IMG/VR virus record: IMGVR_UViG_3300034198_005482
Coordinates: 1-29,200 of that record
DNA length: 29,200 nt
Source of the DNA: a virus
Reading direction: 5' to 3' (one strand)
Shown here: positions 832-27,474 of the stretch, in pieces
Position numbering within the stretch: the stretch's first letter is position 1
Layout: every line of letters starts with the position of its first letter
Notes under the pieces: model-generated
Told to the model about the DNA's origin: nothing
The model's input: the letters and a program-made list of their open reading frames with translations, nothing else
The model's database searches: none
Program-made: the position numbers and the translations under genes

Positions 832-859
832 TGCTTATGTTGCATATTTTGTATATTTG
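830..859 (+). promoter_or_regulatory. Bacteroidota-type promoter for the plus-strand chaperone genes
   Basis: TATATTTG at 852-859 fits the Bacteroidota -7 consensus TAnnTTTG exactly. ATTG at 830-833, 18 bp upstream, is a partial -33 box. Transcription would begin around 865, leaving a leader of fewer than 10 nt before the ATG at 874. The 42-bp divergent gap also holds the element serving the minus-strand protease, so the two units share control DNA. Confidence 0.5.
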
Positions 860-861
860 TT
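836..861 (-). promoter_or_regulatory. Bipartite late-gene element, copy 1 (upstream of protease)
   Basis: On the minus strand this reads AACAAAT, 10 nt, TGCAACATA, then AGCA and the protease ATG. Three further copies precede minus-strand genes at 2535, 11407 and 27442. Function is inferred: a promoter or activator site, or a translation leader. Confidence 0.5.
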
Positions 862-873
862 CAAAAAATAACT

Positions 874-1422
874 ATGATTACAGTATTCGACAGGGAGATT
901 CCCAACAAAATGAGTGAGCTCACCATCGAGCAGTTTGAAAAAATCAGCCAAATCCTCAACAATCAGGACTTCGATAACGTAGAGAAGTATGTTGAGATGT
1001 TCAAATACCTTGGCATTGAGGAGAAGCTATGGGATGACTACCCATTCAGCGAGTTCATTGAGTTGGTGAAGACCTTCAACCTGGACTCATACACACCACA
1101 GGAACCTGTTGCATCCATCGAGTTGGAAGGATACACCTACACAGCAGAGATGCGCTTGTCAGTGAAAGAGACCAAGCTCATCGAGAAGATTGTGAACGGC
1201 AAACCAAACAACTACATCAGCGACATCCTTGCAATCATGTTCAAACGCAGTGACCTCAGCAACACCGAGCACTTCGCAGATGCCCACTTGAAGCATAAGG
1301 CAAAGCTGTTCCGCTCTCAGAAAGCAGAGTTGTGTGTGCCATACATTGTGTTCGTAACCGAAAAGATTGCAGAGTATGCAAAAGCCAATGCTCCCGAAGG
1401 GGTGGCACCAAGTCAATCTTGA
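874..1422 (+). CDS. Tail assembly chaperone, short form (gpG-like)
   Basis: This 182-aa protein is called a tail assembly chaperone from its layout: a short first ORF whose 3' end overlaps, in another frame, a second ORF of similar character, as in lambda G/GT. Near the N-terminus it has an LTIEQFEKI segment that recurs in variant form twice in the second ORF. Such proteins coat the tape-measure protein before tail-tube polymerisation and are absent from the finished virion. The last in-frame codons run through CCC GAA GGG GTG, a plausible +1 slip site, before TGA at 1420. Unlike every other gene in the window except its partner, it lies on the plus strand, about 2 kb from the tape-measure gene rather than directly upstream of it. 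I did not recognise a named family by sequence alone. Confidence 0.6.
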   Translation: MITVFDREIPNKMSELTIEQFEKISQILNNQDFDNVEKYVEMFKYLGIEEKLWDDYPFSEFIELVKTFNLDSYTPQEPVASIELEGYTYTAEMRLSVKETKLIEKIVNGKPNNYISDILAIMFKRSDLSNTEHFADAHLKHKAKLFRSQKAELCVPYIVFVTEKIAEYAKANAPEGVAPSQS

Positions 1423-2113
1423 GCAGTTCATTGAGCTAAGGGGTCTGCAAGCAGAGGATGGTTTGTTCAACCACAACATTGATATCCTCTGCGCACTCAC
1501 TGACTCGCTACCTGAGGACTTTGATGATGCCGAACTGCATGAGGTAGCTGAGTGGTTCAAAGATTTGCAATGGCTGTACTCAGAGCCAAGCAAGTTGCAC
1601 ACTGATCGTGTTGGAAAGTTCTATCTTAAACCCATGAATGAGCTGACATTGGGGGAATTTATCGACCTCGAATACTACTTCACACAGGACTACATCAAGA
1701 ATCTTCCGAACATCTGCGCACTGTTGTATCGCATTCCCGAGATTGTGGAGGATGGTGTGGTGTCAAAGTGGGAAGCAACTACATTCAAGGCAACAGCGAG
1801 AGCGCATTACTTCCTGGACCAACCAATCACCAAGGTGTATGGCATCTTGACTGAGTACATCAAATTCAGGGACCAATTCATCTCATCCCATGCCAACCTA
1901 ATGACTGAAGATATCGAAGATGACCTCAGTGATATCGATGACCCGGAAGAGCGCAAAGAGGCAGAGAAGCAAAAGGCATCCAATAAATGGGGATGGGAGC
2001 AACTGATTTGGTCGATGACCAATGGTGACCTCACCAAGTATGACCAGGTGATTCAGATGAAGCTGATACTCGTGTTTAACTTCTTGGCAATGCGTAAAGA
2101 GTTGGATATTTAG
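1367..2113 (+). CDS. Tail assembly chaperone, frameshift extension (gpT-like)
   Basis: This frame overlaps the previous ORF by 56 nt in the +1 register. Read from the first ATG it would be 248 aa, but that start and those at 1376 and 1388 lie inside the upstream gene, so synthesis as a frameshift fusion is more likely. It contains VNLEQFIEL just after the overlap and ELTLGEFIDLEYYF further on, echoing LTIEQFEKI of the first ORF and suggesting a repeated structural unit. A very acidic stretch (EDIEDDLSDIDDPEER) lies around residues 181-196. The long form of such chaperones recruits tail-tube subunits to the tape measure. The gene ends convergently with the minus-strand gene at 2110, the stop codons overlapping by 4 nt, with no terminator between them. 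Confidence 0.6.
   Translation: MQSMQKPMLPKGWHQVNLEQFIELRGLQAEDGLFNHNIDILCALTDSLPEDFDDAELHEVAEWFKDLQWLYSEPSKLHTDRVGKFYLKPMNELTLGEFIDLEYYFTQDYIKNLPNICALLYRIPEIVEDGVVSKWEATTFKATARAHYFLDQPITKVYGILTEYIKFRDQFISSHANLMTEDIEDDLSDIDDPEERKEAEKQKASNKWGWEQLIWSMTNGDLTKYDQVIQMKLILVFNFLAMRKELDI
1393..1402 (+). other. Candidate +1 programmed ribosomal frameshift site
   Basis: The short ORF reads CCC GAA GGG GTG here and the long ORF is in the +1 frame. A +1 slip of tRNA-Gly on GGG-G (1399-1402), or of tRNA-Pro on CCC-G (1393-1396), would join them. A GGG-G slip gives a product of about 412 aa (176 + 236). A -2 shift would also fit the frame change. The location and size ratio match known G/GT frameshifts; the slip itself is inference. 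Confidence 0.45.
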
Positions 2114-2535
2114 TAATCGAGTGCGTAGTTAAAGTCACCATAAAGCGGCACAAAGTCATATATCACCTTTGGTCTTTTACGCAATAGGTTTCCGAGTTCC
2201 AAGATTGGGAACTTCTGCGCCAAGTCAGCCACATACATTCCATACATCTCACCGATGAGACCATTCATCTCAAGTGCATCGTTGAATTTCTTGACCAATC
2301 TGAAGGGTGCGATGGTGGCTGTGCCGTTGTTCAGATATCCGAAATAATAAGCAGCGAGAATCTCAACTCGTATGTTGCCTTCAGTGGTCACCTTGGCATT
2401 GATACGCACTGAATCATACAATGTGTATGTGTCAATGAGTGCTTCATCCTTGATGACTTTCTTTAATGTGTTGGCAACTCGTCTCCTGAGTGGATATTTG
2501 AAGTTGTATTCACCTGTGTTTTTATATCTTGCCAT
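2110..2535 (-). CDS. Neck or tail-completion protein (HK97 gp10-like)
   Basis: This 141-aa protein has a basic N-terminus (residues ~14-27), then LYDSVRINAKV and an AAYYFGYLNNGT segment. That pattern resembles HK97-gp10-type head-tail joining or tail-completion proteins, in which a substrate-like LxxSI/V segment is followed by a beta strand and YxxYxExGT. The match is loose. It follows the 149-aa tail-terminator candidate in the same direction with 14 nt between them, which supports a neck role. The ATG lies 4 nt after a copy of the bipartite AACAAAT/TGCAACATA element, so it may begin its own late transcript. Its 3' end meets the plus-strand chaperone gene head on. Confidence 0.5.
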   Translation of the reverse strand: MARYKNTGEYNFKYPLRRRVANTLKKVIKDEALIDTYTLYDSVRINAKVTTEGNIRVEILAAYYFGYLNNGTATIAPFRLVKKFNDALEMNGLIGEMYGMYVADLAQKFPILELGNLLRKRPKVIYDFVPLYGDFNYALDY

Positions 2536-2539
2536 TTCT

Positions 2540-2566
2540 TATGTTGCAATTAATCCTCGATTTGTT
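2540..2566 (-). promoter_or_regulatory. Bipartite late-gene element, copy 2
   Basis: On the minus strand: AACAAAT, 11 nt, TGCAACATA, then AGAA and the ATG at 2535. The AACAAAT half overlaps the last codons of the upstream gene, so it is embedded in coding sequence here. Confidence 0.5.
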
Positions 2567-2999
2567 TAGGAATTTGGCAGTCGGTCCATGAATCCATGGA
2601 GAATGTGATGGTCATCAACCACCCAGCTGCATAGTCAAGGAGGTCATTGTTGAGTGGTGACAGCGTTGGCACACCAACCACATCAAAATCACGATCATCA
2701 TTGTTGAATGTATAGTTCAAGTATAGGTCCATCAATATCTGATGGCAGTCGCTGAGGATTGTGTTGATGTTTTCCCTGTCCTTTTGGATGATGTCAAAGC
2801 AATAGATGTCAAGAGTGAAATCATTGGTGTTCTCGGTAGGGATAGCATCGACAGGAACGATGTATATAATCGGAAATTTTTCGTTTTTCGTTGCGAAATT
2901 AAACAACTGTTCCTTGAAGTCAGACCCTACTTTTTTGACCTGGAGATGCGCATTGTAGAATGCGATGATTTCGTTGACGAGCGCTTGGTAACTTATCAC
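2550..2999 (-). CDS. Putative tail terminator or minor tail protein
   Basis: This 149-aa protein has an N-terminal helix (MISYQALVNEIIAFYNAHL), a strand pair around EKFPIIYIVPVDAIP, TLDIYCFDIIQKDREN, a helix (TILSDCHQILMDLYL) and a C-terminal strand with GWLMTITFSMDSW. This is the helix-strand plan of small tail-terminator proteins, and close look-alikes sit next to tail genes in other Bacteroidota phages. The start is GTG at 2999, forming a GTGA overlap with the tape-measure stop, so translation is probably coupled. A tail-terminator role (capping the tube and joining it to the neck) is inferred from size, fold pattern and position. Confidence 0.5.
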   Translation of the reverse strand: MISYQALVNEIIAFYNAHLQVKKVGSDFKEQLFNFATKNEKFPIIYIVPVDAIPTENTNDFTLDIYCFDIIQKDRENINTILSDCHQILMDLYLNYTFNNDDRDFDVVGVPTLSPLNNDLLDYAAGWLMTITFSMDSWTDCQIPKQIED

Positions 3000-4906
3000 A
3001 ATACTGCGTTTTTGAGGATTTTGTTTACTTTGTTTTGTACACCTGTCATCTCGGTCTCACTGACCACAGCTGTGACGGTGATGTTTTGGTTGCTCTCAAC
3101 CCCTTGAGCTGAGCCTGTGTTGTTGGCTGCATTACCTTGACCGAATAAGTTGCCCGGTACGAATGATGGAACTGATGAAGCGGCAGCCGATGCGGTTGCA
3201 CCACCACCTCCACCACCTGATGGTACGTTGACTGATGCGCCACCACCACCCATGAATTTGCTAATTGATGACGCTACGATTGTACCGATGGATGTGGCTG
3301 CTCGAATCTTGGCTCCAGCAGCGGCAGCTGATGCAAGCGCGAGACCACCATCAGGCAAGAGCTTCCATGTTGGGTTGGCATAGTATCCTGATATCTCTTT
3401 CTGAGTGTTGACAATAATCTCACCAATGGCAAGAGCTTTGTCGACCAAGAATAAAGCATTGGCGAGCTTTTTATTCTCACCAGCAAGTTCAGTCAATCCT
3501 GATATCAATCCTTTCGCCGCACCAAGTCGAGCCTGTGCGAGTTGCTCTTCAGCAGCCATGACAGCATCATTGTACTTTTGTTGCTCCTCAAATGAAACCA
3601 TGTTGCCCTCACCTTGAATCTGCAACTGCTGAGTTCTTGTGGACACCATTGTTGATATAATACTCGCAGCTGATTTGGTTTGAATGAATTCATTCTCTGC
3701 CGCCTCTGCCTTGCGTACATTGTTTATCTCAAGTGCTTGAGCTGATTCAAGTGCTGTGATATCTTGCTTGTATTTCTTAGCCTCAGCAATCAGTGCAGCA
3801 TACTTGGTCTTGATGTCATCAATCTCTTTCTGCGATTGCGTTTTTGTTGAGTCAACCACGAGCTTGTTGGCGGTCGCAATCTCTGCTCGGATGGCTGCTT
3901 CACCTTCCTTGTATTTCTTGATTCGCTCTTCACGTTTTGCCTTAGCCTCCTCAGCTGCTTTCTTTTCAGCGGCAGCTTGGTCAGCCTGTTCCTGGATAAG
4001 CAACATGGAGCGCTCTTTCGAACCATCCTTGATGAGTTTGTTCTCATCCTCGATTCTTTTCTTGAGTGCTTTACGTCTCTCGATTGAATCCTTATCGGTG
4101 AGTCCTTTGAGACCAGCGTATTCGGATCGTGCATCGCTCAATCTTTTCTTGGCGGCATCACTGATTGCCTTAGATTTCTCAACCTCAAGTTTTGTGGTAT
4201 CCTTACCGGCTGCCTTCGCTTTAGCAATCTCAATGTCATATCCATCAGATATCGCTTCAGTACGTTTCTCAGATGACTTGAATGCCTTCTCGTTGGATTT
4301 CTCCATCTTGCGAGCGTTCTCTTCAGCGGCATACGATGTCAGACCCAACCAATCGGTCAGCTCTTTGAAGGCATCGATGAGCGCATTGATAGGAATCATC
4401 AAGAAATCAAGCACCTTTTGCAGCACACCAATCTTGTTGAGGAACACCCCTATCGCAACCACGATTGCAATAACAATCGCAGCCAATAAAAATATTGGAT
4501 TTGCAAGAATCTGCGCCCCGAGTTTAACGAATGCACCACCCATTGTTGTGATGGTTGATGTCAGACCCTTCATGCTCTTGCTGATGTCAGCGGCATTGAG
4601 TCCACCAAGATTTTTAGAGAACACTTTCGCCTTCTCAGATGCCTCCTCAAAATCGAGTGACATGATTGAATCCTTGATGCCACCAAATGAGTTGGATATC
4701 TGCTCAAATTTAGACCCTGATGCGAAGACATTGACTGCATCATTGGCATCCTTAATCCTATCAGCTACCTCACCAGCACGAGCAGCGAGTGCCGCCATTT
4801 GTTCCGGGTCAGAAGCATCGGCAATTGCTGCCTTGAGTTGGCGGAGTTCTGCCTTTAAGCTGGTGACTCCTGAGAGCTTGAGTGGTATTTCGACTTCATT
4901 AGCCAT
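2996..4906 (-). CDS. Tail tape measure protein
   Basis: This 636-aa protein has the composition of a tape measure. There is an Ala-rich N-terminal coiled coil (LKAELRQLKAAIADASDPEQ), a strongly hydrophobic segment near residues 136-156 (NPIFLLAAIVIAIVVAIGVF), and a long charged coiled coil rich in Ala, Lys and Glu through about residue 430. A second helical zone (GLISGLTELAGENKKLANAL) follows, then a Gly/Ser/Ala-rich linker before the C-terminus. Tape measures set tail length and later help DNA cross the host envelope; the hydrophobic segment would suit that. At about 0.15 nm per residue the tail would be roughly 95 nm. It overlaps the tail-hub gene by 8 nt and its stop overlaps the GTG of the next gene. 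The chaperones normally found just upstream are missing from this operon and lie at 874-2113. Confidence 0.9.
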   Translation of the reverse strand: MANEVEIPLKLSGVTSLKAELRQLKAAIADASDPEQMAALAARAGEVADRIKDANDAVNVFASGSKFEQISNSFGGIKDSIMSLDFEEASEKAKVFSKNLGGLNAADISKSMKGLTSTITTMGGAFVKLGAQILANPIFLLAAIVIAIVVAIGVFLNKIGVLQKVLDFLMIPINALIDAFKELTDWLGLTSYAAEENARKMEKSNEKAFKSSEKRTEAISDGYDIEIAKAKAAGKDTTKLEVEKSKAISDAAKKRLSDARSEYAGLKGLTDKDSIERRKALKKRIEDENKLIKDGSKERSMLLIQEQADQAAAEKKAAEEAKAKREERIKKYKEGEAAIRAEIATANKLVVDSTKTQSQKEIDDIKTKYAALIAEAKKYKQDITALESAQALEINNVRKAEAAENEFIQTKSAASIISTMVSTRTQQLQIQGEGNMVSFEEQQKYNDAVMAAEEQLAQARLGAAKGLISGLTELAGENKKLANALFLVDKALAIGEIIVNTQKEISGYYANPTWKLLPDGGLALASAAAAGAKIRAATSIGTIVASSISKFMGGGGASVNVPSGGGGGGATASAAASSVPSFVPGNLFGQGNAANNTGSAQGVESNQNITVTAVVSETEMTGVQNKVNKILKNAVL

Positions 4907-7586
4907 ATATTCTGACTTCTATTGGTGAGTATCTTAAAACATCATCATTGTCTTGATGATTGGATGTATCAAATGTTGTGACGTATATGTTACCATCAGA
5001 TGTGACTGATGCAGTAGCAAGGTGGTCATGCTCTACGTTGCCAAGAATGACAAAAGTGTTCACGACATCAAACGGACTGACAGGTGTACCAAGATACTCA
5101 CCCTGTGCAATACGAGTCCATGTAATGCCGCCAATTGTATCAGCCAACACAATCGCTGTCGGTGCTGTTGTTCCCACCTGAGAGAGCAACGCAGTGTATC
5201 CACCTGATGGTGTAGTGATGCCGTTTATCTGCGGAGTGATGATACCATCCTCGTTGAGAATCTTGTTGTCCCCGATGACCAATCCCTTCACACCTTGACC
5301 AATGATGTTGCCCTCACCTTTCACAATCACATCATCTCCTGAGAGATTGCCATTGGCAGTGGTTGACTTGGTCACAAGGATGCTCTCCTCTGACTCCGCT
5401 GTCGTGGTTGGTGGTGTTGGTGTACCTGGAGCAGTGATGAATGGAGCGAGGTCAATCTCTGAGTCGATGCTGATAAGCTCCACCTTGGTTGCTGTGTTAG
5501 CATTGGCATCATAGTCGATGACTCGGTTGATGTTCCACCATGAGTTGTCGATGCGCACCTTTTGGTTTAGCTTCATGGTTTGGATGTCAGCCTCATTGAG
5601 ATTGAACATCGCCACCAACATCTTGCCCACATTGATTTGGTTGACTGTTCTCCTCCAGTACAGGTTGTATAGGTTATTGGCGGTCAGCGTTTCAGGTGAA
5701 TAATAGTAGTAATCGTTGGTGCCAAAGTTGATGTCAAAGGTCGGAAGCAATGCGTTGTCAAAGTGACCGAGCATCGGATATGTCGTGTTGCCGAGCGCAC
5801 CTGTGAGTCCGTACTCAATCAAATCCCATGTGCCGCACGTCTGCTCACCACCATCATACAGGATGCGGATGTTGGTCTTGGGTGCCTCACCATCAATAGC
5901 TGGAACATAGGCATCGAATGTCGTGGCGACCACAGGAGTCGGTGAGAATAGTATCTCTTTTGTCTCAGTTCCTTTGACATATTCGTTGTCGAATGTATAC
6001 TCGAGCTGACCATATACCTCATTGGTCATTTGAAAGTACACCTCATTGGGTGAGTCCTTGTCTTGTTTGTAGCTGAGGATGAGTTTTTTTGCAGTGAGGT
6101 CAGGCAAGAATATCAAGTCTTGCTCTTTATCCTTCATCAGCTTGGCGGTCCAATCCACTTCAACACCTGAGTCATAGTATTCATCCCTGTGCTTGAGGAT
6201 GAGTTTGTTTGGTTGGTCCGTATCGATGTCGACATACAGGTTGTACATCGTGAAGATGGACTTGACGAAATCAGATTGCTTAATCTTGAGCGGGATGTAT
6301 TGGTTGATGTCCAAGATGCCACCAATCACTTGGATGTTGGCTGTTGGAAGTATCTTGATGCGTAGTGAGTTTATCTTGAAGATGGCATCAACAGGATAAG
6401 CTGTACCACCATTGAACCATGAGGTGAATGATGTGTGCGTGCCGAGCTTGATTTGGAACGTATCACCGGTGTTCAACTCACCTGAGCCGAGTGCGTTCTC
6501 CATCACCAAGATGCCGCCTGATTTGGTACCGCTGAAGATGGTTGTCTGACCCGATGCAAGTGTGGTGTTGATGGGCAAGTTCTGATTCGGTAGCACGTTG
6601 GAGTACTGACCTTGGAACGAACCGAATGCAGCCACAATGCGAGGTCGAGCATTCCATGAGTTGAAGGTGTTGGTCACATCCAAACCATTTGCGTTGTCCA
6701 GGATGAAGTCAAGACTGACCTCATACTGAATGGTGAAGCCTTGGCTGCTCGCTGCGTTGGTGTCGAATGGTATGGTGAAGATACCTGTGGTTGGGTTGAA
6801 TGACCCTTGCGCATCCGTTATCTCAGTCCATCCTGTTGCGTTGTCGTATGTGCCGAATGATGCTGTCGGTGTTGCTACCTCAAAGGCGCTGAGTTGCTCC
6901 TCGACCAAGTAGTCAGCATTGTCGAATGTGTTGGCATCACCGTTGTATGGGATGAGCAACTTGTCGAAGCGTGCAGCTGCGAGGTCAGACCACTCGTATT
7001 GGAAGCCTGCTGATGCGAAGATTCTATCGAAGTAAGTCTTGGCATAGATAGCCGGTTTGAATTGACGTACATTGAAGATGTTGTCAGTGTCAAATGGCAT
7101 CACATATTTGAAGCCATCAGTGACAGTGTTGCTAAATGTAGAGATGATGTCAGCCGCTGTGAAGGTGTGGTTGAGGTCAGTGAAGTCCAGGTCAGTGAGC
7201 TCAGCGTTTGTGATCGCAGTAAAGAACTCGATGCGAGTGTCCTTGATGAGGACCTCATACTCTACCCCTTGCTCATAGGCATCGGTTTGCTGATTCTTTT
7301 TAACTGACAGCAACTGAAGCAGCGCATCCTCCACGATAGGTACACCATTCTGAATGACTGCACACTTGGTCAGTGCGTTGATGTCGAAGGTGCCAGCTTG
7401 AATGTTTACATCATAGTAGTGGTTGAGGAGGTCATTGTTGTTCTTGCTTCCAACCAAGGTGATGGTCTTGGAGAACGTTCCGGTGCGCTTGGTGAAGTCG
7501 CGAATGTCACCGACTGCAAAATTCAAAGGAAATACCGTTCCCTCTTTAGTGTCGAGGAAGCCATTCTCAAGTTGTATCCTAACCAT
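4899..7586 (-). CDS. Large tail-tip / baseplate hub-like protein
   Basis: This 895-aa protein is encoded directly upstream of the tape measure. In long-tailed phages that position holds distal-tail and hub proteins. The N-terminus (NGFLDTKEGTVFPLNFAVGDIRDF, then RTGTFSKTI) matches a family I know from tail modules of Bacteroidota phages but cannot name by domain. The middle is beta-rich with many aromatic residues. From about residue 740 there is a Thr/Ser linker, then a GEGNIIGQGVKGLVIGDNK stretch that looks like short beta-solenoid turns, then a separate C-terminal domain (~790-895). The hub would form the tail tip and contact the receptor-binding proteins encoded upstream. It overlaps the preceding gene by 8 nt. 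The ATG follows ACAACATAA, a degenerate half of the late-gene element. Confidence 0.6.
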   Translation of the reverse strand: MVRIQLENGFLDTKEGTVFPLNFAVGDIRDFTKRTGTFSKTITLVGSKNNNDLLNHYYDVNIQAGTFDINALTKCAVIQNGVPIVEDALLQLLSVKKNQQTDAYEQGVEYEVLIKDTRIEFFTAITNAELTDLDFTDLNHTFTAADIISTFSNTVTDGFKYVMPFDTDNIFNVRQFKPAIYAKTYFDRIFASAGFQYEWSDLAAARFDKLLIPYNGDANTFDNADYLVEEQLSAFEVATPTASFGTYDNATGWTEITDAQGSFNPTTGIFTIPFDTNAASSQGFTIQYEVSLDFILDNANGLDVTNTFNSWNARPRIVAAFGSFQGQYSNVLPNQNLPINTTLASGQTTIFSGTKSGGILVMENALGSGELNTGDTFQIKLGTHTSFTSWFNGGTAYPVDAIFKINSLRIKILPTANIQVIGGILDINQYIPLKIKQSDFVKSIFTMYNLYVDIDTDQPNKLILKHRDEYYDSGVEVDWTAKLMKDKEQDLIFLPDLTAKKLILSYKQDKDSPNEVYFQMTNEVYGQLEYTFDNEYVKGTETKEILFSPTPVVATTFDAYVPAIDGEAPKTNIRILYDGGEQTCGTWDLIEYGLTGALGNTTYPMLGHFDNALLPTFDINFGTNDYYYYSPETLTANNLYNLYWRRTVNQINVGKMLVAMFNLNEADIQTMKLNQKVRIDNSWWNINRVIDYDANANTATKVELISIDSEIDLAPFITAPGTPTPPTTTAESEESILVTKSTTANGNLSGDDVIVKGEGNIIGQGVKGLVIGDNKILNEDGIITPQINGITTPSGGYTALLSQVGTTAPTAIVLADTIGGITWTRIAQGEYLGTPVSPFDVVNTFVILGNVEHDHLATASVTSDGNIYVTTFDTSNHQDNDDVLRYSPIEVRIYG

Positions 7587-9286: not shown

Positions 9287-9288
9287 TG

Positions 9289-10974: not shown

Positions 10975-11135
10975 TGTATTGCGTTAAGTGCGGTTAATTG
11001 TGCTTCAAGACAAGCGGATGCTTCGAAAACTCCGCCGTCAGCCGCTACCCTTGCGGCAAATGTTGACACAATGCTTGGGACTGGGTTGCCAAATGACAAC
11101 CAAAAAGACGGGTTGTAAAGGCTGTAGAAATACAT
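10971..11135 (-). CDS. Small tail-fibre companion protein (54 aa)
   Basis: This ORF of 54 codons starts MYFYSLYNPSFWLSFGNPVP and ends FEASACLEAQLTALNAIQ. It is supported by tight packing: its ATG shares one base with the previous stop (TAATG), and its TGA overlaps the next ATG (ATGA). The ADGGVFEASACLEAQL segment resembles a short motif that often accompanies LamG-like surface proteins of Bacteroidota and their phages. It may be an attachment peptide for the large receptor-binding protein. Function unknown. Confidence 0.6.
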   Translation of the reverse strand: MYFYSLYNPSFWLSFGNPVPSIVSTFAARVAADGGVFEASACLEAQLTALNAIQ

Positions 11136-11407
11136 TACCCAAGAACTAAAGCAACACTACCCGATGCCAATGTGACACCACTGAACTGAAGGTCATTGAT
11201 TGGGGTGATGATGGCACCGGCTTTGACTGCTGTACCTGGAGCGGCAATGTATGTGCTTTTGACATCCACACCAGCTGTCTTGATCGCGGTGAAGACTGTG
11301 TCCTGAAGTACGACAATCGCATCGATGGTCTTGGTTGCCTCAGTTGTGTTGTTGACGATGTATGTCCCATTGTTAGCGACAAGCTCGCCCATTAGATTTG
11401 TTCCCAT
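11135..11407 (-). CDS. Small structural protein, unassigned
   Basis: This 90-aa protein is rich in Ala, Thr and Val: IDAIVVLQDTVFTAIKTAGVDV, then a Gly-turn region ending SGVTLASGSVALVLG. Low charge and short predicted strands suggest a beta-fold virion protein such as a decoration or fibre-tip protein. It is the first gene after the large terminase and has its own bipartite AACACTT/TGCAACATA element, so it probably heads the late tail transcript. A second ATG (codon 6, MGELVANN) is possible. Confidence 0.5.
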   Translation of the reverse strand: MGTNLMGELVANNGTYIVNNTTEATKTIDAIVVLQDTVFTAIKTAGVDVKSTYIAAPGTAVKAGAIITPINDLQFSGVTLASGSVALVLG

Positions 11408-11419
11408 GGTTTTTTCTTT

Positions 11420-11446
11420 TATGTTGCAAATTAAGTGTGAAGTGTT
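11420..11446 (-). promoter_or_regulatory. Bipartite late-gene element, copy 3
   Basis: On the minus strand: AACACTT (5 of 7 matching AACAAAT), 11 nt, TGCAACATA. The ATG is 12 nt further on, after an A-rich AAGAAAAAACC. It starts right at the terminase stop codon and could uncouple tail genes from terminase transcription. Confidence 0.45.
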
Positions 11447-13109: not shown

Positions 13110-13465
13110 TATATCAGATTTAGTCCTTTGAGTTTAGATTCTGCCCAATCAAGTCCTGTCTTGCCACCCCATAGGAGAAAGCTAACGTATGCACAATCCT
13201 CAGGTGCTGCATCATCGAAGTTCGGCTCTGCTCTGCTGAGATAGCTGTACATTCGTTTGATGGTATCGATGGAGATTGGTTCCTTATTTGCGAGCTGCTG
13301 ACCTCTAACCTTTCCAACCTGAGTGGCGCACTTGTTTCCGAGCTCTTCATTGAGTGCGATTCCTCTGCGTGCATTGTTGCGCACTGAGTCAGGATAGTCG
13401 TTGTAGCTGTCCTCAGCGAAGGCTGCGAGGTATTTACTGAGCGCGTTTTCGTTTTGCTGTTGCAT
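13109..13465 (-). CDS. Small conserved protein resembling a domain attached to head proteases
   Basis: This 118-aa protein contains YPDSVRNNARRGIALNEELG, CATQVGKVRGQQLANKEPIS, IKRMYSYLSRAE and FLLWGGKTGLDWAESKLK. I recall this order of motifs from a domain found in head-morphogenesis or protease proteins of other phages; here it stands alone beside the terminase genes. Function unknown; a DNA-packaging or prohead-assembly role is inferred. I prefer ATG 13465 (MQQQNENALSKYLAAF), giving a 32-nt overlap with the previous gene. A start at 13504 would add 13 basic, Gln-rich residues. Confidence 0.5.
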   Translation of the reverse strand: MQQQNENALSKYLAAFAEDSYNDYPDSVRNNARRGIALNEELGNKCATQVGKVRGQQLANKEPISIDTIKRMYSYLSRAEPNFDDAAPEDCAYVSFLLWGGKTGLDWAESKLKGLNLI

Positions 13466-13700
13466 TGCGTTGTTTTTTTGGTGCTGGTGCTTCGACTTGC
13501 TCATCCTCTTCGATTCCTGTGTATTGAATCGGCTCAGGTGTTGTTGCGGTCTCTGCTTCCCTTTCGAACAGGTACCCGAGTCCTATGCTCACATAGTATC
13601 GGTACTTGGTCACATCTATGTTGTCAACAACTATGGTTGTGTTTCCGAGCGTTGTCCTCTTGATGATGGTCTTGCCCTTGTGTTCTGCTTTGATTTTCAT
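13434..13700 (-). CDS. Small basic protein, unknown
   Basis: This 88-aa protein has a beta-rich N-terminal half (GKTIIKRTTLGNTTIVVDNIDVTKYRYYVSIGLGYLFE, given here in two parts: GKTIIKRTTLGNTTIVV and KYRYYVSIGLGYLFE). An acidic linker follows and then a Lys/Arg-rich tail (APKKQRNATAKRKRAQ) that could bind nucleic acid. It lies just upstream of packaging genes. The ATG is preceded by an A-rich stretch suited to Bacteroidota initiation, yet lies 77 nt inside the sigma-like gene. No family recognised. Confidence 0.5.
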   Translation of the reverse strand: MKIKAEHKGKTIIKRTTLGNTTIVVDNIDVTKYRYYVSIGLGYLFEREAETATTPEPIQYTGIEEDEQVEAPAPKKQRNATAKRKRAQ

Positions 13701-14214
13701 TATATATGATTTTTAGTTTTGTTTTGATTTCAGCGATGAGGTAGTGTGCTGAGGTGTTTGGAATCTTGAAGTACTTCGCCATTGATCGTGCAGTGGTATA
13801 CCCCTCATCGAAGTAAGCCTTGGCAACTGTTATCTTCACGTTGTCGGTGAGCGAATCTCGATATATGTCCACGCATGACTTCCATCCATGGTATTCTTTC
13901 TCGATGTTTATCTTGTCGATAAGGTCAGTATCATCCACCATCAGGTCAGGCATTGCCGTCTCACTTGATAGGAGTCGCTCCTGTCGATTGGTGTCTAGGT
14001 TCTGCCACATCACTTGGCGCTTGATGGAGTTCATCATGAGTCCCTTGACATCGGGGTCGGGTCCAGGGTTCTGAATTGACACCACATGAAGATATGCGTT
14101 GTTGATTACAACATCCGGATTGAGCCTCGGATTGTACTTGGAACAAAAAAACCGAGCGTATCGAAATAGCTCGGCATAGTGCCTGGTGATATATCGGTCA
14201 AGAGATGCTTTCAT
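13624..14214 (-). CDS. Sigma-factor-like / late transcription regulator
   Basis: This 196-aa protein has the plan of a small ECF-type sigma factor. An N-terminal helical part (LDRYITRHYAELFRYARFF, then NPDVVINNAYLHVVS) resembles region 2. The C-terminal part carries a helix-turn-helix (YFDEGYTTARSMAKYFKI, then SAHYLIAEIKTKLK) like region 4. It is the only gene here that looks able to redirect RNA polymerase, and it sits at the early/late boundary just before the terminase genes. It could read the bipartite late elements or the tandem repeat at 27478-27537, but that is inference. The last ~25 residues are Gln/His-rich, overlap the next gene by 77 nt, and look like read-out of another gene's frame. 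It could instead be a plain DNA-binding protein. Confidence 0.45.
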   Translation of the reverse strand: MKASLDRYITRHYAELFRYARFFCSKYNPRLNPDVVINNAYLHVVSIQNPGPDPDVKGLMMNSIKRQVMWQNLDTNRQERLLSSETAMPDLMVDDTDLIDKINIEKEYHGWKSCVDIYRDSLTDNVKITVAKAYFDEGYTTARSMAKYFKIPNTSAHYLIAEIKTKLKIIYNENQSRTQGQDHHQEDNARKHNHSC

Positions 14215-14410
14215 ACCAATTGATGAAGTCCTTGTACCATATTTTGCGCCTCACCATGGAGCAGAAGCATTCACGATCCGACTTGCCCTCGACTCGCTCC
14301 TTGATTTTCTTGAGTGGGAGCAGTGCTTTCTTGGTAAAGCGGTGCGCATCATCCATCTCAATCACTTGAGAGATGTATTCGATGTCAGTTTGAGTCAGTC
14401 CTGTGTCCAT
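14198..14410 (-). CDS. Small protein, unknown (70 aa)
   Basis: Starts MDTGLTQTDIEYISQVIEMDDAHRF and includes KKALLPLKKIKERVEGKSDRE and CFCSMVRRKIWYKDF. It is mostly helical, with a CxC pair and a basic-aromatic C-terminus. It overlaps the previous gene by 16 nt and the sigma-like gene by 17 nt, and may partner the latter. No family recognised. Confidence 0.5.
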   Translation of the reverse strand: MDTGLTQTDIEYISQVIEMDDAHRFTKKALLPLKKIKERVEGKSDRECFCSMVRRKIWYKDFINWYESIS

Positions 14411-14643
14411 TGAGTAATCAGATAAGCCACCATTGAGACGAGTGCGGCATATCCTATGTTGCCTGTAAGTGCCAAAGTGGTCCAAAATGAGGTGCACTTC
14501 CAACACCCAAATGATGAGTGAAGGAATTGCATGAATTTTGCCTCAGGTAGCCAATTGATGAATATCGCATCAATGACCCAATGAAGCGGCTCGAATTTAG
14601 CGATGAGCCAACCGATGGCGAGTGATATGATTAGTGCTTCCAT
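14395..14643 (-). CDS. Small membrane protein with CxxC (82 aa)
   Basis: Two hydrophobic segments (residues ~4-27, LIISLAIGWLIAKFEPL; and ~57-77, ALTGNIGYAALVSMVAYLIT) flank FGCWKCTSFWTT, which has a CxxC. Similar CWKC-SFW membrane proteins appear in other Bacteroidota phages. They might act in superinfection exclusion or membrane remodelling, but function is unknown. It overlaps both neighbours (13 and 16 nt). Confidence 0.55.
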   Translation of the reverse strand: MEALIISLAIGWLIAKFEPLHWVIDAIFINWLPEAKFMQFLHSSFGCWKCTSFWTTLALTGNIGYAALVSMVAYLITQWTQD

Positions 14644-20954: not shown

Positions 20955-20956
20955 GC

Positions 20957-21617: not shown

Positions 21618-21698
21618 ATCTCTTCCATTTTTATTGCACAAATTCGGTTGTATAGATCGTGGTCAAATGATGTCCAAAATCGATTGCGTTGGTAGTGG

Positions 21699-22016: not shown

Positions 22017-22017
22017 T

Positions 22018-22405: not shown

Positions 22406-22406
22406 G

Positions 22407-22595
22407 TTAGTTGTTTTGAAAGTATAGTCTTGATAATTTGTAATCGCTCTTCAAATGCATATTTGACATCTGACCAATCAATTGAGAAAGGTGTGCTTGC
22501 TCTTGTTCTTTGGTGTTGATGCCTAAAACAATTTGTTTGCTCACGTTTAGCTGTCCGTTGTGCAAATTTTCGATTTCGATGATAAGTGTTTTCAT
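22407..22595 (-). CDS. First early gene, small protein (62 aa)
   Basis: Starts MKTLIIEIENLHNGQLNVSK and is the first gene after the consensus promoter at 22618-22648, with a ~15-nt A-rich leader. It has a strand-turn-strand start (IVLGINTKEQEQ) and a helical end. First early genes often encode host-takeover proteins, but nothing in the sequence identifies a target. Confidence 0.55.
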   Translation of the reverse strand: MKTLIIEIENLHNGQLNVSKQIVLGINTKEQEQAHLSQLIGQMSNMHLKSDYKLSRLYFQNN

Positions 22596-22617
22596 TTTTT
22601 GTCCTTGTTTTGTTTGA

Positions 22618-22648
22618 CAAATCTACACATACTTTTTATATCTGCAAA
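22618..22648 (-). promoter_or_regulatory. Consensus Bacteroidota promoter, early operon
   Basis: On the minus strand: TTTG (22645-22648), a 19-nt spacer, then TAGATTTG (22618-22625). Both boxes match the Bacteroidota -33/-7 consensus exactly. Transcription would begin near 22611, ~15 nt before the ATG at 22595. It is the best promoter in the window and faces the early and replication genes. Confidence 0.8.
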
Positions 22649-22688
22649 ACTTTTTTAACATTTTTTTTCATCTCCTAACAAATAGGCA

Positions 22689-22713
22689 CAAAAAAAGGGG
22701 TGTCTCCACCCCT
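22689..22713 (-). terminator. Strong terminator ending the late operon
   Basis: On the minus strand AGGGGTG-GAGA-CACCCCT forms a perfect 7-bp stem (22707-22713 / 22696-22702) with a 4-nt loop, followed by about 7 T. It lies 25 bp after the metallophosphoesterase stop and 41 bp before the early promoter, insulating late from early transcription. Confidence 0.9.
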
Positions 22714-22737
22714 CAAAACAATTATGAACGCTCGAAT

Positions 22738-23616
22738 TTACAAAGGAAATTTGATACTGTCGATGTTTTTGTAAACTTTTTTATGACCATCTCGCTCGAG
22801 TCTGTCAGATTCGAAGATGAGAATGCGACCTCCTGTCGGTTTAACAGGCGCACCACGCTCAACGTGCCATCCTTTTGAGCCATCACCGTACTCTTCCTTG
22901 TATGTACCTGTGAGCATCAGGTGAATATCCTTATGCTCGTGGCGGTATCCTGTTTTGCTGTGGTATGAGACGGTATCTCTGACATCATTTCGAGCAGCGT
23001 TCTCGTGGATGTGACCCATTGCGAACACATCGAAGTCCTCATACATTTCTAAAGCTCGGGTAAGGTTTAGAGCTCCCTTTGTAACTACACCACCACCACC
23101 TGAGCCATGGAAGTACTTTATCTTGAATGATGATTGTACATTCATATTGAAAGTTTGACGCAATATAATCCAACCACCATAGCCACCGGTGAACACCTGA
23201 GTGCCATTTCGGTAGTTTAGGAGGTCAACGAATCGCTGAAGGATGTCGGTCTCTTGATACTTGATGATTGCGGTCTCATGGTTGCCGTAACCGATGACAG
23301 TAAGCAAGTGAGCATAAGGTGACCACCACTCGACAGCTGTTTCAACGATGCTATCCAGGTACTTTGCATTGTTGTGTTCAGGTCTGATGTCTGATTTGTT
23401 CCCTCTGCGATCTCCGCGACCCTGCATGAGGCAGAAAAAATCGCCATTCACCATGATGGGGATGTTGTGCTCAACACAATAGTCGAGGTCTCTCTTGAGG
23501 ATATTCCAATCACATTTTGGATTGTCCCAATGGAGGTCTGAAAGCATTGCAATCTTGACCTGTTTACCATCCATCTGAATCTCGTGGATGTTTTTTGCGT
23601 GTTTTTTTACAATCAT
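22738..23616 (-). CDS. Calcineurin-like metallophosphoesterase
   Basis: This 292-aa protein has all five metal-binding motifs of the family: DLH (D27, H29), GDFF (D59), GNHE (N112, H113), a His in KYFHGSGGGG, and GHIHE near 205. These proteins hydrolyse phosphoesters in nucleic acids, nucleotides or proteins with two metals. The substrate here cannot be read from sequence; DNA or RNA end processing and signalling-nucleotide removal are both possible. The start is ATG 23616, forming ATGA with the spanin stop; a longer upstream reading would overlap the spanin. It is the last gene before the strong terminator, an odd place for a DNA enzyme. Confidence 0.85.
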   Translation of the reverse strand: MIVKKHAKNIHEIQMDGKQVKIAMLSDLHWDNPKCDWNILKRDLDYCVEHNIPIMVNGDFFCLMQGRGDRRGNKSDIRPEHNNAKYLDSIVETAVEWWSPYAHLLTVIGYGNHETAIIKYQETDILQRFVDLLNYRNGTQVFTGGYGGWIILRQTFNMNVQSSFKIKYFHGSGGGGVVTKGALNLTRALEMYEDFDVFAMGHIHENAARNDVRDTVSYHSKTGYRHEHKDIHLMLTGTYKEEYGDGSKGWHVERGAPVKPTGGRILIFESDRLERDGHKKVYKNIDSIKFPL

Positions 23617-24044
23617 ATTTGTGTTTTGGAGTACCTGAAGAGGTACATGGTTCCCATTCCTATCACAAAGCCGAGAATCAGCACCCAAAAAACAGGCTTT
23701 TCTCGTTGGCTTTTGTACTTTGCCACCTCAACCTTCTGCACTTGGCGGATGGTGTCACGCTTGAGGCGATATTCTATGCGTGTTTGCCACCTTGTTTGAG
23801 GCACATAGGATGTCTTGTATTGAATTATCGTGTCCTTGGTGGTGTGATAGTATTCATACACTATTTGATTGTCTCTAATGACAGGAAATGAGTCGATAGT
23901 TGTGATGCGAATGGTATCACCAACATCCTCGCATCGATATCCTTTCTTAATCGCCTTATTTATATGGTAATTAACACCGCATCCTGTCACAATTATTGTA
24001 AGAATTAGTGACAAAATAAGGTTATAGGTTGAAAGTTTTTTCAT
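23613..24044 (-). CDS. Putative unimolecular spanin (u-spanin)
   Basis: This 143-aa protein has a signal peptide with a lipobox at IIVTGC (lipidated C22), a strand-rich periplasmic middle with repeated DTI words (~43-100), and one C-terminal membrane span (~118-136, VFWVLILGFVIGMGTMYLF) with a short basic cytoplasmic tail. An outer-membrane lipid anchor and an inner-membrane anchor on one chain is the design of u-spanins such as T1 gp11 (~131 aa), which fuse the two membranes in the last step of lysis. It lies beside the holin and endolysin genes, as expected. It was recognised by topology, not sequence identity; fusion is not proven. Confidence 0.7.
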   Translation of the reverse strand: MKKLSTYNLILSLILTIIVTGCGVNYHINKAIKKGYRCEDVGDTIRITTIDSFPVIRDNQIVYEYYHTTKDTIIQYKTSYVPQTRWQTRIEYRLKRDTIRQVQKVEVAKYKSQREKPVFWVLILGFVIGMGTMYLFRYSKTQI

Positions 24045-24061
24045 TTTTTAAGGTTATAGGC

Positions 24062-24640
24062 TTAAAATTCATTTATTAAGCAATAGCTCACCACCTTCTG
24101 CGCCTTGGTTGCTCTGATAAACGTGCGATATTTATCCATATCATTGACCACTTGGCACCCAGCACTCCACCATCCGATGGTTGCACCTGTGTTATCTGCG
24201 TTGATGTTGTATGTATTTGGATGAAAGTTGATGCCGAAGTATCCGGTCTGAACTTTACCGATTGCCTCGCTCTTGTCATCCTTATCGGTGTCACGATTCA
24301 CTGCAATGGATGCGCTAAGCTGAAGGAGTGCATCAACCTTGCCATTGTGCTTACCGAACTTCCAAAGATTATAGTACCATGAGTCAGCCACTACCACAGC
24401 AGCGCCATCCTTGTTGACCTTCTCGAATTGCTTCAGTGTTGGTGTACCTGGATTGGTGGTACCTGATGCAACTGCAATGAACTGCTCACCTTTAAAGAGA
24501 TAGAACTTGTCATCGAATCGATTCGGTGTGTCTTCATTAGATCGTACACCAAGAATCCAATGTTCTGAAGGAATGCTCTTGAAATTTGGCAGCGTTTTAA
24601 CCTTGTCGAGTAGCTGCTTGTCGGTATATGCTCTGACCAT
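24062..24640 (-). CDS. Endolysin, L,D-transpeptidase/YkuD-like
   Basis: This 192-aa protein has a C-terminal catalytic part with a His (NFHPNTYN, H140) followed by WWSAGCQVV (S159-A-G-C162). That matches the H...S-x-G-C motif of L,D-transpeptidase-like peptidoglycan enzymes, and I recall the WSAGCQV form in lysis genes of other Bacteroidota phages. The N-terminal ~100 residues may bind the cell wall. With no signal peptide it needs the holin encoded upstream to reach the wall. It would cut or rearrange cross-links; no lysozyme or amidase gene was found. An inverted repeat lies just before its ATG. Confidence 0.65.
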   Translation of the reverse strand: MVRAYTDKQLLDKVKTLPNFKSIPSEHWILGVRSNEDTPNRFDDKFYLFKGEQFIAVASGTTNPGTPTLKQFEKVNKDGAAVVVADSWYYNLWKFGKHNGKVDALLQLSASIAVNRDTDKDDKSEAIGKVQTGYFGINFHPNTYNINADNTGATIGWWSAGCQVVNDMDKYRTFIRATKAQKVVSYCLINEF

Positions 24641-24641
24641 T

Positions 24642-24671
24642 TGTCCAGTTTTTTGTCCGTTTTACTGGACA
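24642..24671 (-). promoter_or_regulatory. Hairpin at the endolysin start
   Basis: In the minus-strand mRNA TGTCCAG (24665-24671) and CTGGACA (24642-24648) pair over 7 bp with a 16-nt A-rich loop. The stem ends one base before the endolysin ATG, so it could hide the ribosome-binding region or, by exposing the A-rich loop, help initiation. It may also be a binding site for a regulator. Confidence 0.5.
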
Positions 24672-24699
24672 TTTTAAGTATTTTTCTCCTCAATTAAGT

Positions 24700-24733
24700 A
24701 AATAACCCCAGCAACATATCACCGGGGATTTTT
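24700..24733. terminator. Weak terminator-like hairpin after the holin gene
   Basis: CCCC (24706-24709) and GGGG (24724-24727) can pair, extended by two pairs including a G-U on the minus strand. The T-run is clear only on the plus strand (ATTTTT); on the minus strand it is a looser TTATTTACTT. It might reduce transcription between holin and endolysin. Confidence 0.3.
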
Positions 24734-24774
24734 CGGTTTAATCGGTTTACTCAACCAATAACTTGCACCGTCAG

Positions 24775-25200
24775 TTACTTCCAACCATCCAACTCTTCCT
24801 TGGACCTGGTCACAAATTTGCGCATTGCTGCGAGTATATTCTTTCCTGTTACACTTTCATAGCTTTCGTTGATGCTCTTGACCTCAACCACTACGCAAAA
24901 GAATGCAACAAATTTGGTCATGATAAGCTCAACCGAAATAAAGTGAGCGATGATATCACCAGCAATGAACTTCTCAATCAAGAATGTGAACACAATACCA
25001 CCCGAATAAAGTGTTGCCTTACCAAGTGTGTCACTCAATCTGCGTGACTTGAATGATACCCATCCGTTTTTCTTTACCGAGCGCCAAACTCCGAAGATGG
25101 TGTCAATGAATATGGCGAGGATGGCAACCAATACCAATGGCTGAACCGGTGCGAGTACTGTGAACAATGAAGCGAAGATTGCGAGTGTGGTTTGTTTCAT
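24775..25200 (-). CDS. Holin
   Basis: This 141-aa membrane protein has about three hydrophobic segments: residues ~5-37 (IFASLFTVLAPVQPLVLVAI), a second (ATLYSGGIVFTFLIEKFIA) and a third (LIMTKFVAFFCVVVEVKSIN). A polar VKKNGW-KSRRLSDTLGK loop lies between the first two. The FIDTIFGVWRS, SRRLSDTLGK and VEVKSINESYE segments fit the phage_holin_4 type. It would form holes in the inner membrane and release the endolysin. Its ATG shares one base with the previous stop. Confidence 0.75.
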   Translation of the reverse strand: MKQTTLAIFASLFTVLAPVQPLVLVAILAIFIDTIFGVWRSVKKNGWVSFKSRRLSDTLGKATLYSGGIVFTFLIEKFIAGDIIAHFISVELIMTKFVAFFCVVVEVKSINESYESVTGKNILAAMRKFVTRSKEELDGWK

Positions 25201-25766
25201 CAGATGACGAGAATTTGATTGTTGTATCCGTTGTTGCGTGGATATCCGCAGTTCCAGGTACCATCCATGAAGCAGTCACCGATGCACTGATTGCATTCGA
25301 TTTGTGGTCGAAGGTCAGTGTCACGATTCTCGTGGCTGATGAAGATAGGATACTCAGCTCGGTTCTTGACAAGGTATCTGATGAGGCGCATCTCAAAGAA
25401 TGAAGCCTTCTGAGCATAGTGTTCCATGCCGAATGCCACCTCGGAGCGAGATACACTTGATGAGTTGTCACCGAATTGAGTTTGTAGACCCTTGTTCTTG
25501 AGCTGATATGTCAACCCGAATACAGCATCCTCAGCCGAGCGCCATGCGATGACAGGCTGAATGAATGTGACGAGTGTCTCTTCCTCAGGTGTGAGTGTTT
25601 GGTCATTGTATGCCTCAAGCAAATGGTTGTAGAATACGGTGCCAAGTATCGGCATCACTCTAAGCTGTGCTTGAGTTGCCACATATGGGAACACATCAGT
25701 CACATCCACATTGGCTGTGATGGGTGTGTTGGTCTTGAGATAGTTTTCGGTGATGAAGTACAGCAT
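25200..25766 (-). CDS. Head-tail connector / adaptor protein (DUF6712-like)
   Basis: This 188-aa protein follows the portal directly (TAATG overlap). It resembles the DUF6712 adaptors of Bacteroidota phages: VFPYVATQAQLRVMPILGTV, then TLVTFIQPVIAWRSAEDAVF and FFEMRLIRYLVKN. Such proteins form the ring under the portal. The C-terminus holds an unusual Cys cluster (IECNQCIGDCFMDGTWNCGY, spacing C-x2-C-x3-C-x7-C) that could bind a metal ion. Confidence 0.65.
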   Translation of the reverse strand: MLYFITENYLKTNTPITANVDVTDVFPYVATQAQLRVMPILGTVFYNHLLEAYNDQTLTPEEETLVTFIQPVIAWRSAEDAVFGLTYQLKNKGLQTQFGDNSSSVSRSEVAFGMEHYAQKASFFEMRLIRYLVKNRAEYPIFISHENRDTDLRPQIECNQCIGDCFMDGTWNCGYPRNNGYNNQILVI

Positions 25767-27097
25767 TAGACTTGAGGTGTTTGTGTTTGTGCGGCTTGAG
25801 TAGCGGTGACATCACCACCTTCAATCGGTCCAAGTGATGCGAGTGCTCTGACTTCATTGATAGTCATCTGCTCAAGGACCTTGGTTGCCACCAATGGACT
25901 CATTGCATTGAGTGCATCTGATGTCTTGGATGCATCGCCATCGATTTCAACGATGGTTTCATTGATGATTTGGAAGTTGTTGATGGTGAACTCAGCCATG
26001 CTCAGCTTGGCAATGTGAAGTATCTCATTGAAGATATCTTGCACTTGCTCTCTGAGTGGCATCACGACATTCTTTTCGAAGATGACGTATGCTTGCTTGA
26101 TATCAGAACCTGAACCGAGTGAGCCTGTTGTGCGCACACCCATGAGTATTGGGTCAATAGTATGGGCAAAACAAATTTGCTCAGTATTCAACCCGGATGC
26201 CTCTTGGAATAGTTTGTCATTCGAGTTGGTTGGTAGGCTCTCAATCTTCGGCAACTGCTCTGCTGAGTTGGCAAAAAATGCAGCGGTCTTGCCAGCGTTC
26301 TGAGCTCCTTTAAGTTTGTCGATGGTTTGGCGCAGTACGTTCTTTTCCTCTTCGCTTTGTGGGCGCTTAGGGAACATAATTGCAAACGATGGAAATATTG
26401 AGTTCTGAATGTTGCTCTTTGCAAAGAACGAAAGCTCGCCCGACAAAAACGCAAAGTTAAGTGCTGAGGAGTATTTCGGCAGCGGATACCAATCTTGCCC
26501 TAAGCACTCGACCTCATAAACAAAAAGCTGTTCACGATCAGTGCATGATGGATGATGCCTCTTGATTTCTTGGATGTCGATGCGAGTCGACCAATCTTCA
26601 CAAATGAAGTACTGATTCTTTTGGCGGCCCTTTCTAACTTTCTCAGGTGAGACATTCTCAGCCCTGGTCATCTTCATCTTGTCATCAAAAAACAAACGGA
26701 AGTACACTCGATTGTGTACAATCAATTGCTCGGTTGTGATTCGAGCTGTCTTTTTGAGCTTGATTTTTTTCTCGAATGTGTATAATTCAAGGAGGTCCTT
26801 CGGTGTTGCGTTCTTGGTCTTGAGTTCAAATCCACCACCAATAACTGCATTTGTTTTGTAGTCCACGATGGCACCATGAAGTGGTGAGCTGTACACCATT
26901 TGATTGAGCAATTGCGGATACATATCATCCTGGCCAAATCTGATTTGATTGGCGGTAGTGTATCGACCATTGACATATGGGAGTGACAGGTTTGCGCCAC
27001 CAACTTTCAAGAATGGTGTGCTGAAAGCATCATAATTGGATGAAATCATCTCAACTGCTTCCTCTTTTTTTGCTCTGAATCTATCGTACCAAGCCAT
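25766..27097 (-). CDS. Portal protein
   Basis: This 443-aa protein is called a portal from size, position (upstream of the connector and downstream of capsid genes) and motifs: an N-terminal WYDRFRAKKEE helix, then DMYPQLLNQMVYSSPLHGAI and TNAVIGGGFELKTKN (wing), IFPSFAIMFPKRPQ, and late IDPILMGVRTTGSLGSGSD, whose GSGSD turn is common in Bacteroidota phage portals. The 12-mer ring is the DNA entry pore and docks the terminase. The C-terminal ~30 residues are Ala/Thr/Gln-rich. Confidence 0.8.
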   Translation of the reverse strand: MAWYDRFRAKKEEAVEMISSNYDAFSTPFLKVGGANLSLPYVNGRYTTANQIRFGQDDMYPQLLNQMVYSSPLHGAIVDYKTNAVIGGGFELKTKNATPKDLLELYTFEKKIKLKKTARITTEQLIVHNRVYFRLFFDDKMKMTRAENVSPEKVRKGRQKNQYFICEDWSTRIDIQEIKRHHPSCTDREQLFVYEVECLGQDWYPLPKYSSALNFAFLSGELSFFAKSNIQNSIFPSFAIMFPKRPQSEEEKNVLRQTIDKLKGAQNAGKTAAFFANSAEQLPKIESLPTNSNDKLFQEASGLNTEQICFAHTIDPILMGVRTTGSLGSGSDIKQAYVIFEKNVVMPLREQVQDIFNEILHIAKLSMAEFTINNFQIINETIVEIDGDASKTSDALNAMSPLVATKVLEQMTINEVRALASLGPIEGGDVTATQAAQTQTPQV

Positions 27098-27100
27098 GTG

Positions 27101-27442
27101 TTAATCGTAAATTGATGAAACTGATGCGCCACTGACAACCATTCTACCCTCCTCAATGACCACTCCTGTGGTATCACTGATTTCGGTTGGCGGTATGGTT
27201 GACTCGTATACGCTGTATGAGTATTGTCCCTTCATTAGTTCTGTATCGATTGGCTCATCCAGGTAGAATAGATTGAATCTCTCAGGATATGGCGACTCAT
27301 CGGTGTTGGTGAAGAGGATTGGGTCGGATGTTGGGTTCATTTCGTTTTGGAATACGAACAAATAGTATGGTGAAGGTAGCGTTGACACTTCCGACAGCGT
27401 CAGCACTATGCTGTTGACCTCACCTTTGTTGATGTATATCAT
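27101..27442 (-). CDS. Small virion-module protein, unknown (113 aa)
   Basis: Starts MIYINKGEVNSIVLTLSEVS and continues PYYLFVFQNEM and SYSVYESTIPP, with an ending EEGRMVVSGASVSSIYD. This pattern recurs in structural modules of Bacteroidota phages, and the strand-rich sequence suggests an Ig- or fibre-like domain. It heads the portal-lysis transcript: the ATG at 27442 lies 5 nt after a bipartite late element. Three bases separate its stop from the portal ATG. Confidence 0.5.
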   Translation of the reverse strand: MIYINKGEVNSIVLTLSEVSTLPSPYYLFVFQNEMNPTSDPILFTNTDESPYPERFNLFYLDEPIDTELMKGQYSYSVYESTIPPTEISDTTGVVIEEGRMVVSGASVSSIYD

Positions 27443-27447
27443 TTGTA

Positions 27448-27474
27448 TATGTTGCAGATAGGTCAAAATTTGTT
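27448..27474 (-). promoter_or_regulatory. Bipartite late-gene element, copy 4
   Basis: On the minus strand: AACAAAT, 11 nt, TGCAACATA, then 5 nt to the ATG at 27442. It lies just downstream (in transcription) of a tandem 19-bp repeat and a terminator, marking the start of a new transcription unit. Confidence 0.5.

Follow-up and report, generated by a model that had tools for sequence, protein, structure and literature searches.

The DNA analysed here, 29,200 nucleotides (nt) of the IMG/VR virus record IMGVR_UViG_3300034198_005482 and called the window throughout, is the complete or nearly complete 29.2 kb genome of an uncultured water phage, known from metagenomes alone. The present analysis deals with a two-part DNA word, the late element, which stands just upstream of four genes or operons on the minus strand of this genome, and with the protein that could read it. 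The terminase of the window has hundreds of related stretches in IMG/VR and shares at most about 34% identity with that of isolate phages; no isolate of this phage family was found. For comparison, 41 relatives were fetched, mostly of genome length, of which 22 formed the first batch. We assume that the host is a Bacteroidota bacterium. The host search among genome contigs gave a single contig of a metagenome-assembled genome (L415), likely a binned phage, and its host affiliation was not used.

The four copies of the late element, with the genes that follow them, are these:

836..861, minus strand: late element 1, AACAAAT-N10-TGCAACATA, 4 nt upstream of the ATG at 831, where the gene called protease starts
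2540..2566, minus strand: late element 2, AACAAAT-N11-TGCAACATA, 4 nt upstream of open reading frame (ORF) 2110-2535, called neck
11420..11446, minus strand: late element 3, AACACTT-N11-TGCAACATA, immediately past the terminase stop and 12 nt upstream of ORF 11135-11407
27448..27474, minus strand: late element 4, AACAAAT-N11-TGCAACATA, 5 nt upstream of ORF 27101-27442, which opens the portal operon

The names protease and neck are taken from gene order, and the ORF called neck has no significant family match. The pattern AACAAAT-N9-13-TGCAACATA has exactly three matches in the window, all on the minus strand (836-861, 2540-2566 and 27448-27474), and none in 100 dinucleotide shuffles of it, the copy at 11420-11446 having an exact second half and AACACTT as its first half. 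Thus, the paired word that an earlier note on this DNA had described before four late genes is present as three exact copies and one variant, with the spacers (10, 11, 11 and 11 nt for elements 1 to 4) and the distances to the ATG (4, 4, 12 and 5 nt) that had been claimed. The second halves of all four elements are non-coding, and the first half of element 2 lies within the coding sequence of the upstream gene, at its 3' end. Neither half is informative by itself. The 9-nt second half alone, with one mismatch allowed, gives no stand-alone signal (15 found against 12 expected), and AACAAAT alone is found 23 times against 9.3 expected, but scattered in the window. The signal is the pairing, the spacing and the position.

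Conservation of the element in related phages

In a loose form, AACA-N12-18-GCAAYATA, the element is found at exactly four places in most genomes of the window lineage, namely at the starts of the protease, neck and portal-operon genes and after the terminase stop, and over 23 genomes 75 copies were observed against about 3 expected from shuffles. The earlier note had made its claim depend on the rarity of competing matches in coding sequence and on conservation in related phages; no such matches were encountered, and conservation is strong, with the same gene groups concerned in the relatives.

Alignment on the 3' core gives the anatomy R-AAC-A ... xxxAAYATN ... start codon, and the form common to the 41 relatives is RAAC-N17/18-AAYAT, with at least 3 nt to the start codon. 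In more distant relatives the element persists where the protease gene and the portal operon begin, and usually also behind terL, its 3' half being richer in A+T; at the neck site it is absent in two distant clades. Among the sites that have RAAC, its spacing to AAYAT measures 17 nt for the protease gene (38/38) and 18 nt for both the neck gene (20/20) and the portal operon (42/42). At the post-terminase site, where some distant relatives have no clear RAAC, it is 18 nt (26 sites) or 19 nt (3 sites).

The gap between AAYATN and the start codon, in turn, is 3 nt in 77 of 141 sites, 4 nt in 31, 5 nt in 17, 6 nt in 6 and 8-19 nt in the other 10, in a search whose permitted range was 2-9 nt at three of the four genes. 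A start codon closer than 3 nt was seen in 0/141 sites, and the site listing likewise shows none. In 64 sites the fourth nucleotide after AAYATN lies ahead of the start codon, and in 55 of these it is A. When IMG/VR was scanned for the exact word, copies 4-5 nt upstream of a conserved late gene were confined to this phage family, and matches outside it were single and mostly without a gene start.

The bases preceding AAYAT are GC at 69/69 sites of 18 window-lineage genomes and at 0/72 sites of the other 24. Moreover, AACAT stands in place of AATAT in G000 and G001 (4/4 sites each) and in G002 (2/4), and in no other genome. Since the 3' half changes in concert at unlinked sites, one trans-acting reader is indicated.

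The half-copy reported by the earlier note before the hub gene, at 7586, does not belong to this set and was rejected as a site. It is the 3' coding end of the previous gene, and its counterparts in relatives read AACGTAA, AATATAA or AACATAA. No RAAC is found at 17-18 nt upstream of it, and just 1 nt separates it from the ATG, which is so at no real site.

A sigma-like protein as candidate reader

13624..14214, minus strand: sigma-like protein of 196 amino acids (aa), proposed reader of the element on the grounds of conservation, AlphaFold2 and Foldseek

The best candidate for reading the element would be the product of this ORF, which was found in 22/22 and then in 40/40 relatives, and whose gene is located in the early/middle block, just upstream of the terminase (packaging) genes. 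Two AlphaFold2 models show a three-helix N-terminal part and a helix-turn-helix (HTH) C-terminal part, with a low-confidence linker at about residues 72-96. Foldseek matches in the PDB are almost exclusively sigma factors, headed by the extracytoplasmic function (ECF) sigma L, sigma E, sigma H, AlgU and SigK. The best match among viral models, at 61% identity, is an uncharacterised phage protein; those that bear a name are sigma factors. From these models, the protein is predicted to have a sigma2-sigma4 fold.

The residues of the sigma-like protein that separate the AACAT from the AATAT lineage cluster at positions 45-61, in the sigma2 part, between helices 2 and 3; in ECF sigmas, the corresponding segment holds the -10 specificity loop (PMC6411747). 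Genomes with the GC type of element differ from those with the A+T-rich types at residues 72-74.

Two observations concern the neighbourhood and the copy number of this gene. The small ORF 14198-14431 (minus strand), which adjoins it, is present in 40/40 relatives. Two sigma-like and two terminase genes are found in G004 (L241, L242), where one genome of the distant clade E is joined to about 4.5 kb of window-lineage phage; this IMG/VR contig looks chimeric, and its second sigma-like copy was not counted as a paralogue.

It is unlikely that the element is a late promoter with some other reader, such as a phage activator aiding the host sigma or an alternative host sigma. The changes in the element demand merely one trans-acting reader, whichever it is, host-like ECF sigmas occur in bacteria, and the non-virion ORF beside the sigma-like gene is as universal as that gene. 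However, a protein of sigma-like fold is found in every relative, its lineage differences cluster in the segment matching the -10-reading region, and the 17/18-nt two-part geometry, together with the GAAC half, resembles that of ECF promoters, whereas some relatives lack the XRE-like and HTH-like small ORFs.

Genomic context and the proposed late promoter

Besides the elements themselves, there are two terminator-like features:

27583..27606, minus strand: intrinsic-terminator-like hairpin, GAAGCCATCCTTCGGGGTGGCTTT-TTTG, upstream of element 4
28177..28198, minus strand: intrinsic-terminator-like hairpin after the capsid gene

In many relatives, element 4 lies directly behind an intrinsic terminator hairpin. 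The gene behind the terminase is swapped among relatives and the element stays, and in distant clades the relatives of these tail genes are located elsewhere, again with an element just in front. Within the protease unit, the capsid gene is preceded by an ordinary A-rich leader and by no element. No RNA structure was detected in the four leaders (fold z-scores -0.6 to 0.2). The rigid spacing between RAAC and AAYAT, combined with a variable distance to the start codon, fits DNA bound by two sigma-factor domains. Thus, among the options raised by the earlier note (promoter, activator site or translation leader), the spacing, the terminator, the swapped and moved genes, the concerted change and the unstructured leaders favour a late promoter, and the translation leader is disfavoured.

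This last explanation, in which the ribosome or a phage translational regulator would bind the element in the mRNA so that late mRNAs are preferentially translated, deserves only slight credence. Its attraction lies in the element being 3-6 nt from the start codon in 131/141 sites, and in the lack of Shine-Dalgarno pairing in Bacteroidota, which makes special leaders conceivable. A translation leader would be marked by a fixed start-codon distance or by a conserved RNA structure. The distance, however, varies from 3 to 19 nt, stretching to 9-19 nt at some sites while the internal spacing stays at 17-18 nt, the A four nt past the element tracks the element and not the ATG, and the leaders are unstructured; furthermore, the sites stand at unit boundaries or behind a terminator, and the capsid gene does with its A-rich leader alone. 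Shared ancestry or coding constraint alone, that is, conserved gene junctions with no regulatory role, is very improbable despite the location of the first half of element 2 within conserved coding sequence (KQI codons) and the overlap of the first half of element 1 with an opposite-strand TATATTTG box, as the same word, its letters changing together, is found at four loci with unrelated flanks and before moved tail genes, with non-coding second halves at the four sites.

A host Bacteroidota promoter on the late strand was also considered and rejected, with same-strand TAnnTTTG at 0/4 sites. The earlier note had likewise seen no match to this promoter, and minus-strand TANNTTTG is indeed present at none of the four. 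The scan for E. coli-type promoters gave no excess.

Taking all this into account, the late element is probably a two-part late promoter, read by the phage sigma-like protein of ORF 13624-14214 on the host core RNA polymerase. The upstream half, R-AAC-A, would act as a -35-like contact and the downstream half, xxxAAYATA, as a -10-like contact 17 or 18 nt away, both read by host core polymerase carrying the two-domain sigma-like protein. Early genes would first be transcribed from host-type promoters, at 22648-22618 and probably at 831-859 for the divergent pair 874-2113. As the sigma-like protein accumulates, it would switch on the separate late units, namely protease-capsid, the portal operon, the tail module and the neck gene. 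Transcription would most likely start at the conserved A, four nt after AAYATN, giving leaderless transcripts or very short leaders; with this start, the commonest transcripts, those with a 3-nt gap, would be leaderless. The 3' half would then span about -12 to -4, and the upstream half would be about 3 nt nearer to the start than in ECF promoters.

Several points weigh against this proposal. Read as a classical -10 hexamer, AAYATN would, with the most frequent gap to the start codon, place the transcription start slightly beyond the ATG; one of the two spacings, -35/-10 or -10/start, therefore has to fall about 3 nt short of that in E. coli-type promoters. The element types follow phylogeny, and the changes reflect few independent events. 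Searches of Pfam, NCBIfam, PHROGs and PDB sequences gave no significant match to the sigma-like protein, and the sigma-factor profile search of the window and of ORF 13624-14214, including region 2 and region 4 profiles, was negative. Profile alignment (hhalign) to ECF sigmas is co-linear but weak, over 128-155 columns with E 0.016-0.028; that against 21 bacterial ECF-type sigmas stays in register over 155 columns, at E 0.028. The AlphaFold2 model is of medium confidence (predicted local distance difference test, pLDDT, about 72; predicted template modelling score, pTM, 0.37), hence the modest Foldseek E-values, the best being 7e-4 to an unrelated protein. The clustering of lineage differences (12/17 vs 22/158, p about 1.5e-6) was counted in a residue window, 45-61, chosen after the fact. 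Lastly, ORF 14198-14431 could be the reader or a cofactor.

A bolder proposal, somewhat less likely to hold than to fail, is that a dedicated promoter and a highly diverged sigma-like protein drive leaderless virion mRNAs, and that the specificity segment has diverged along with the -10 half (CAACAT, CAATAT and TAATAT types, with one genome half-way), giving a series of possibly orthogonal pairs.

Other promoter-like sites of the window are listed below, together with a possible fifth element:

831..859, plus strand: host-type promoter-like TTG-N18-TATATTTG, for the divergent gene at 874; overlaps element 1 on the opposite strand
22618..22648, minus strand: early-region host-type promoter-like TTTGCAGATATAAAAAGTATGTGTAGATTTG (TTTG-N-TAnnTTTG)
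13614..13644, minus strand: possible fifth element AAAC-N18-AACATA-GAT-GTG, located within ORF 13434-13700, close behind the end of the sigma-like gene

The TAnnTTTG of the first site is kept in relatives, and G019 has a sequence similar to the second, TTGCAGATATAAA...TATCTTTG. The candidate fifth element is weak in the window lineage, and G001 has no start codon there. In two distant clades, a clear element is found inside the 3' coding end of the sigma-like gene (L397 14996-15026, L377 5910-5940 and similar loci), where it precedes an ORF of 54-58 aa with a hydrophobic N-terminus.

With regard to gene arrangement, two plus-strand genes at 874-2113, between protease and neck, run against all other genes; they have no family match and are conserved in nearly all of the first 22 relatives. 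The place after the terminase (11135-11407 in the window) is a module-swap site, occupied in relatives by different tail or receptor-type genes. Between the terminator and element 4 there is a 22-nt direct repeat, CACAATCTATACTCGAGCGGGT (91%), at 27475-27496 and 27516-27537. It looks like an insertion particular to the window genome; in the relatives examined, the terminator abuts the element directly.

Comparison with known late transcription systems

The analysis assigns a late-switch mechanism, comprising a DNA site and a candidate reader, to a phage family represented by hundreds of metagenome stretches, and gives a putative function to a sigma-like gene recognised by no annotation library. 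The lineage series of element types, which includes a genome with two sites of each, makes sigma/promoter co-evolution directly testable. Leaderless mRNAs or leaders under 10 nt make up just 3.7-5.5% of Bacteroidota host mRNAs (PMC9723704, PMC7366714), and if the host belongs to this group, the leaderless late mRNAs predicted here would be unusual for it.

In Bacteroidota, primary promoters carry TTTG at -33 and TAnnTTTG at -12 to -5 (PMC9723704, PMC7366714). The 3' half of the late element would sit similarly relative to the start point (-12 to -4), but TAnnTTTG is missing from the late strand at all four sites.

ECF promoters are characterised by a GAAC-type -35 and stringent spacing (PMC6411747). 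The predicted sigma2-sigma4 fold of 175-196 aa, the RAAC upstream half, the rigid 17/18-nt spacing, and the lineage differences located in the counterpart of the -10 specificity loop are all reminiscent of ECF sigmas. In contrast to these, the protein has no sequence-profile match, the -10 sequence is another one, and the element is nearer to the start codon.

In T4, late transcription depends on gp55 with gp33, the sigma2-like and sigma4-like parts being split and -35 recognition being absent (PMC2988020). As in T4, a diverged sigma-family protein on the host polymerase is predicted to specify late promoters; unlike in T4, a single protein appears to unite both sigma parts, and the promoter consists of two halves. 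This bears on a question posed in the T4 review (PMC2988020), namely why no late sigma with both DNA-reading parts in one is encountered there.

The closest parallels are phiEco32, whose sigma phi32_gp36 reads the late promoter tAATGTAtA, and 7-11, whose gp47 reads GTAAtg-16-aCTA (PMC8948821). As in these phages, there are a few short elements at fixed places before late units, there would be a phage sigma-type protein and host-type early promoters, and the element is two-part as in 7-11, where the gap is 16 nt. Nevertheless, the element sequence is unrelated, tblastn of the sigma-like protein against 50,697 phage records gave no match in isolate phages, the phages described here have genomes of 29-30 kb, and the start codon lies merely 3-5 nt after the element, against start sites 6-9 nt from it in phiEco32 and 7-11. 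In sum, phage sigmas with their own late promoters are already known, and the system described here would, judged by its sequence, work like those, yet with an element and a protein that are not recognisably of those families.

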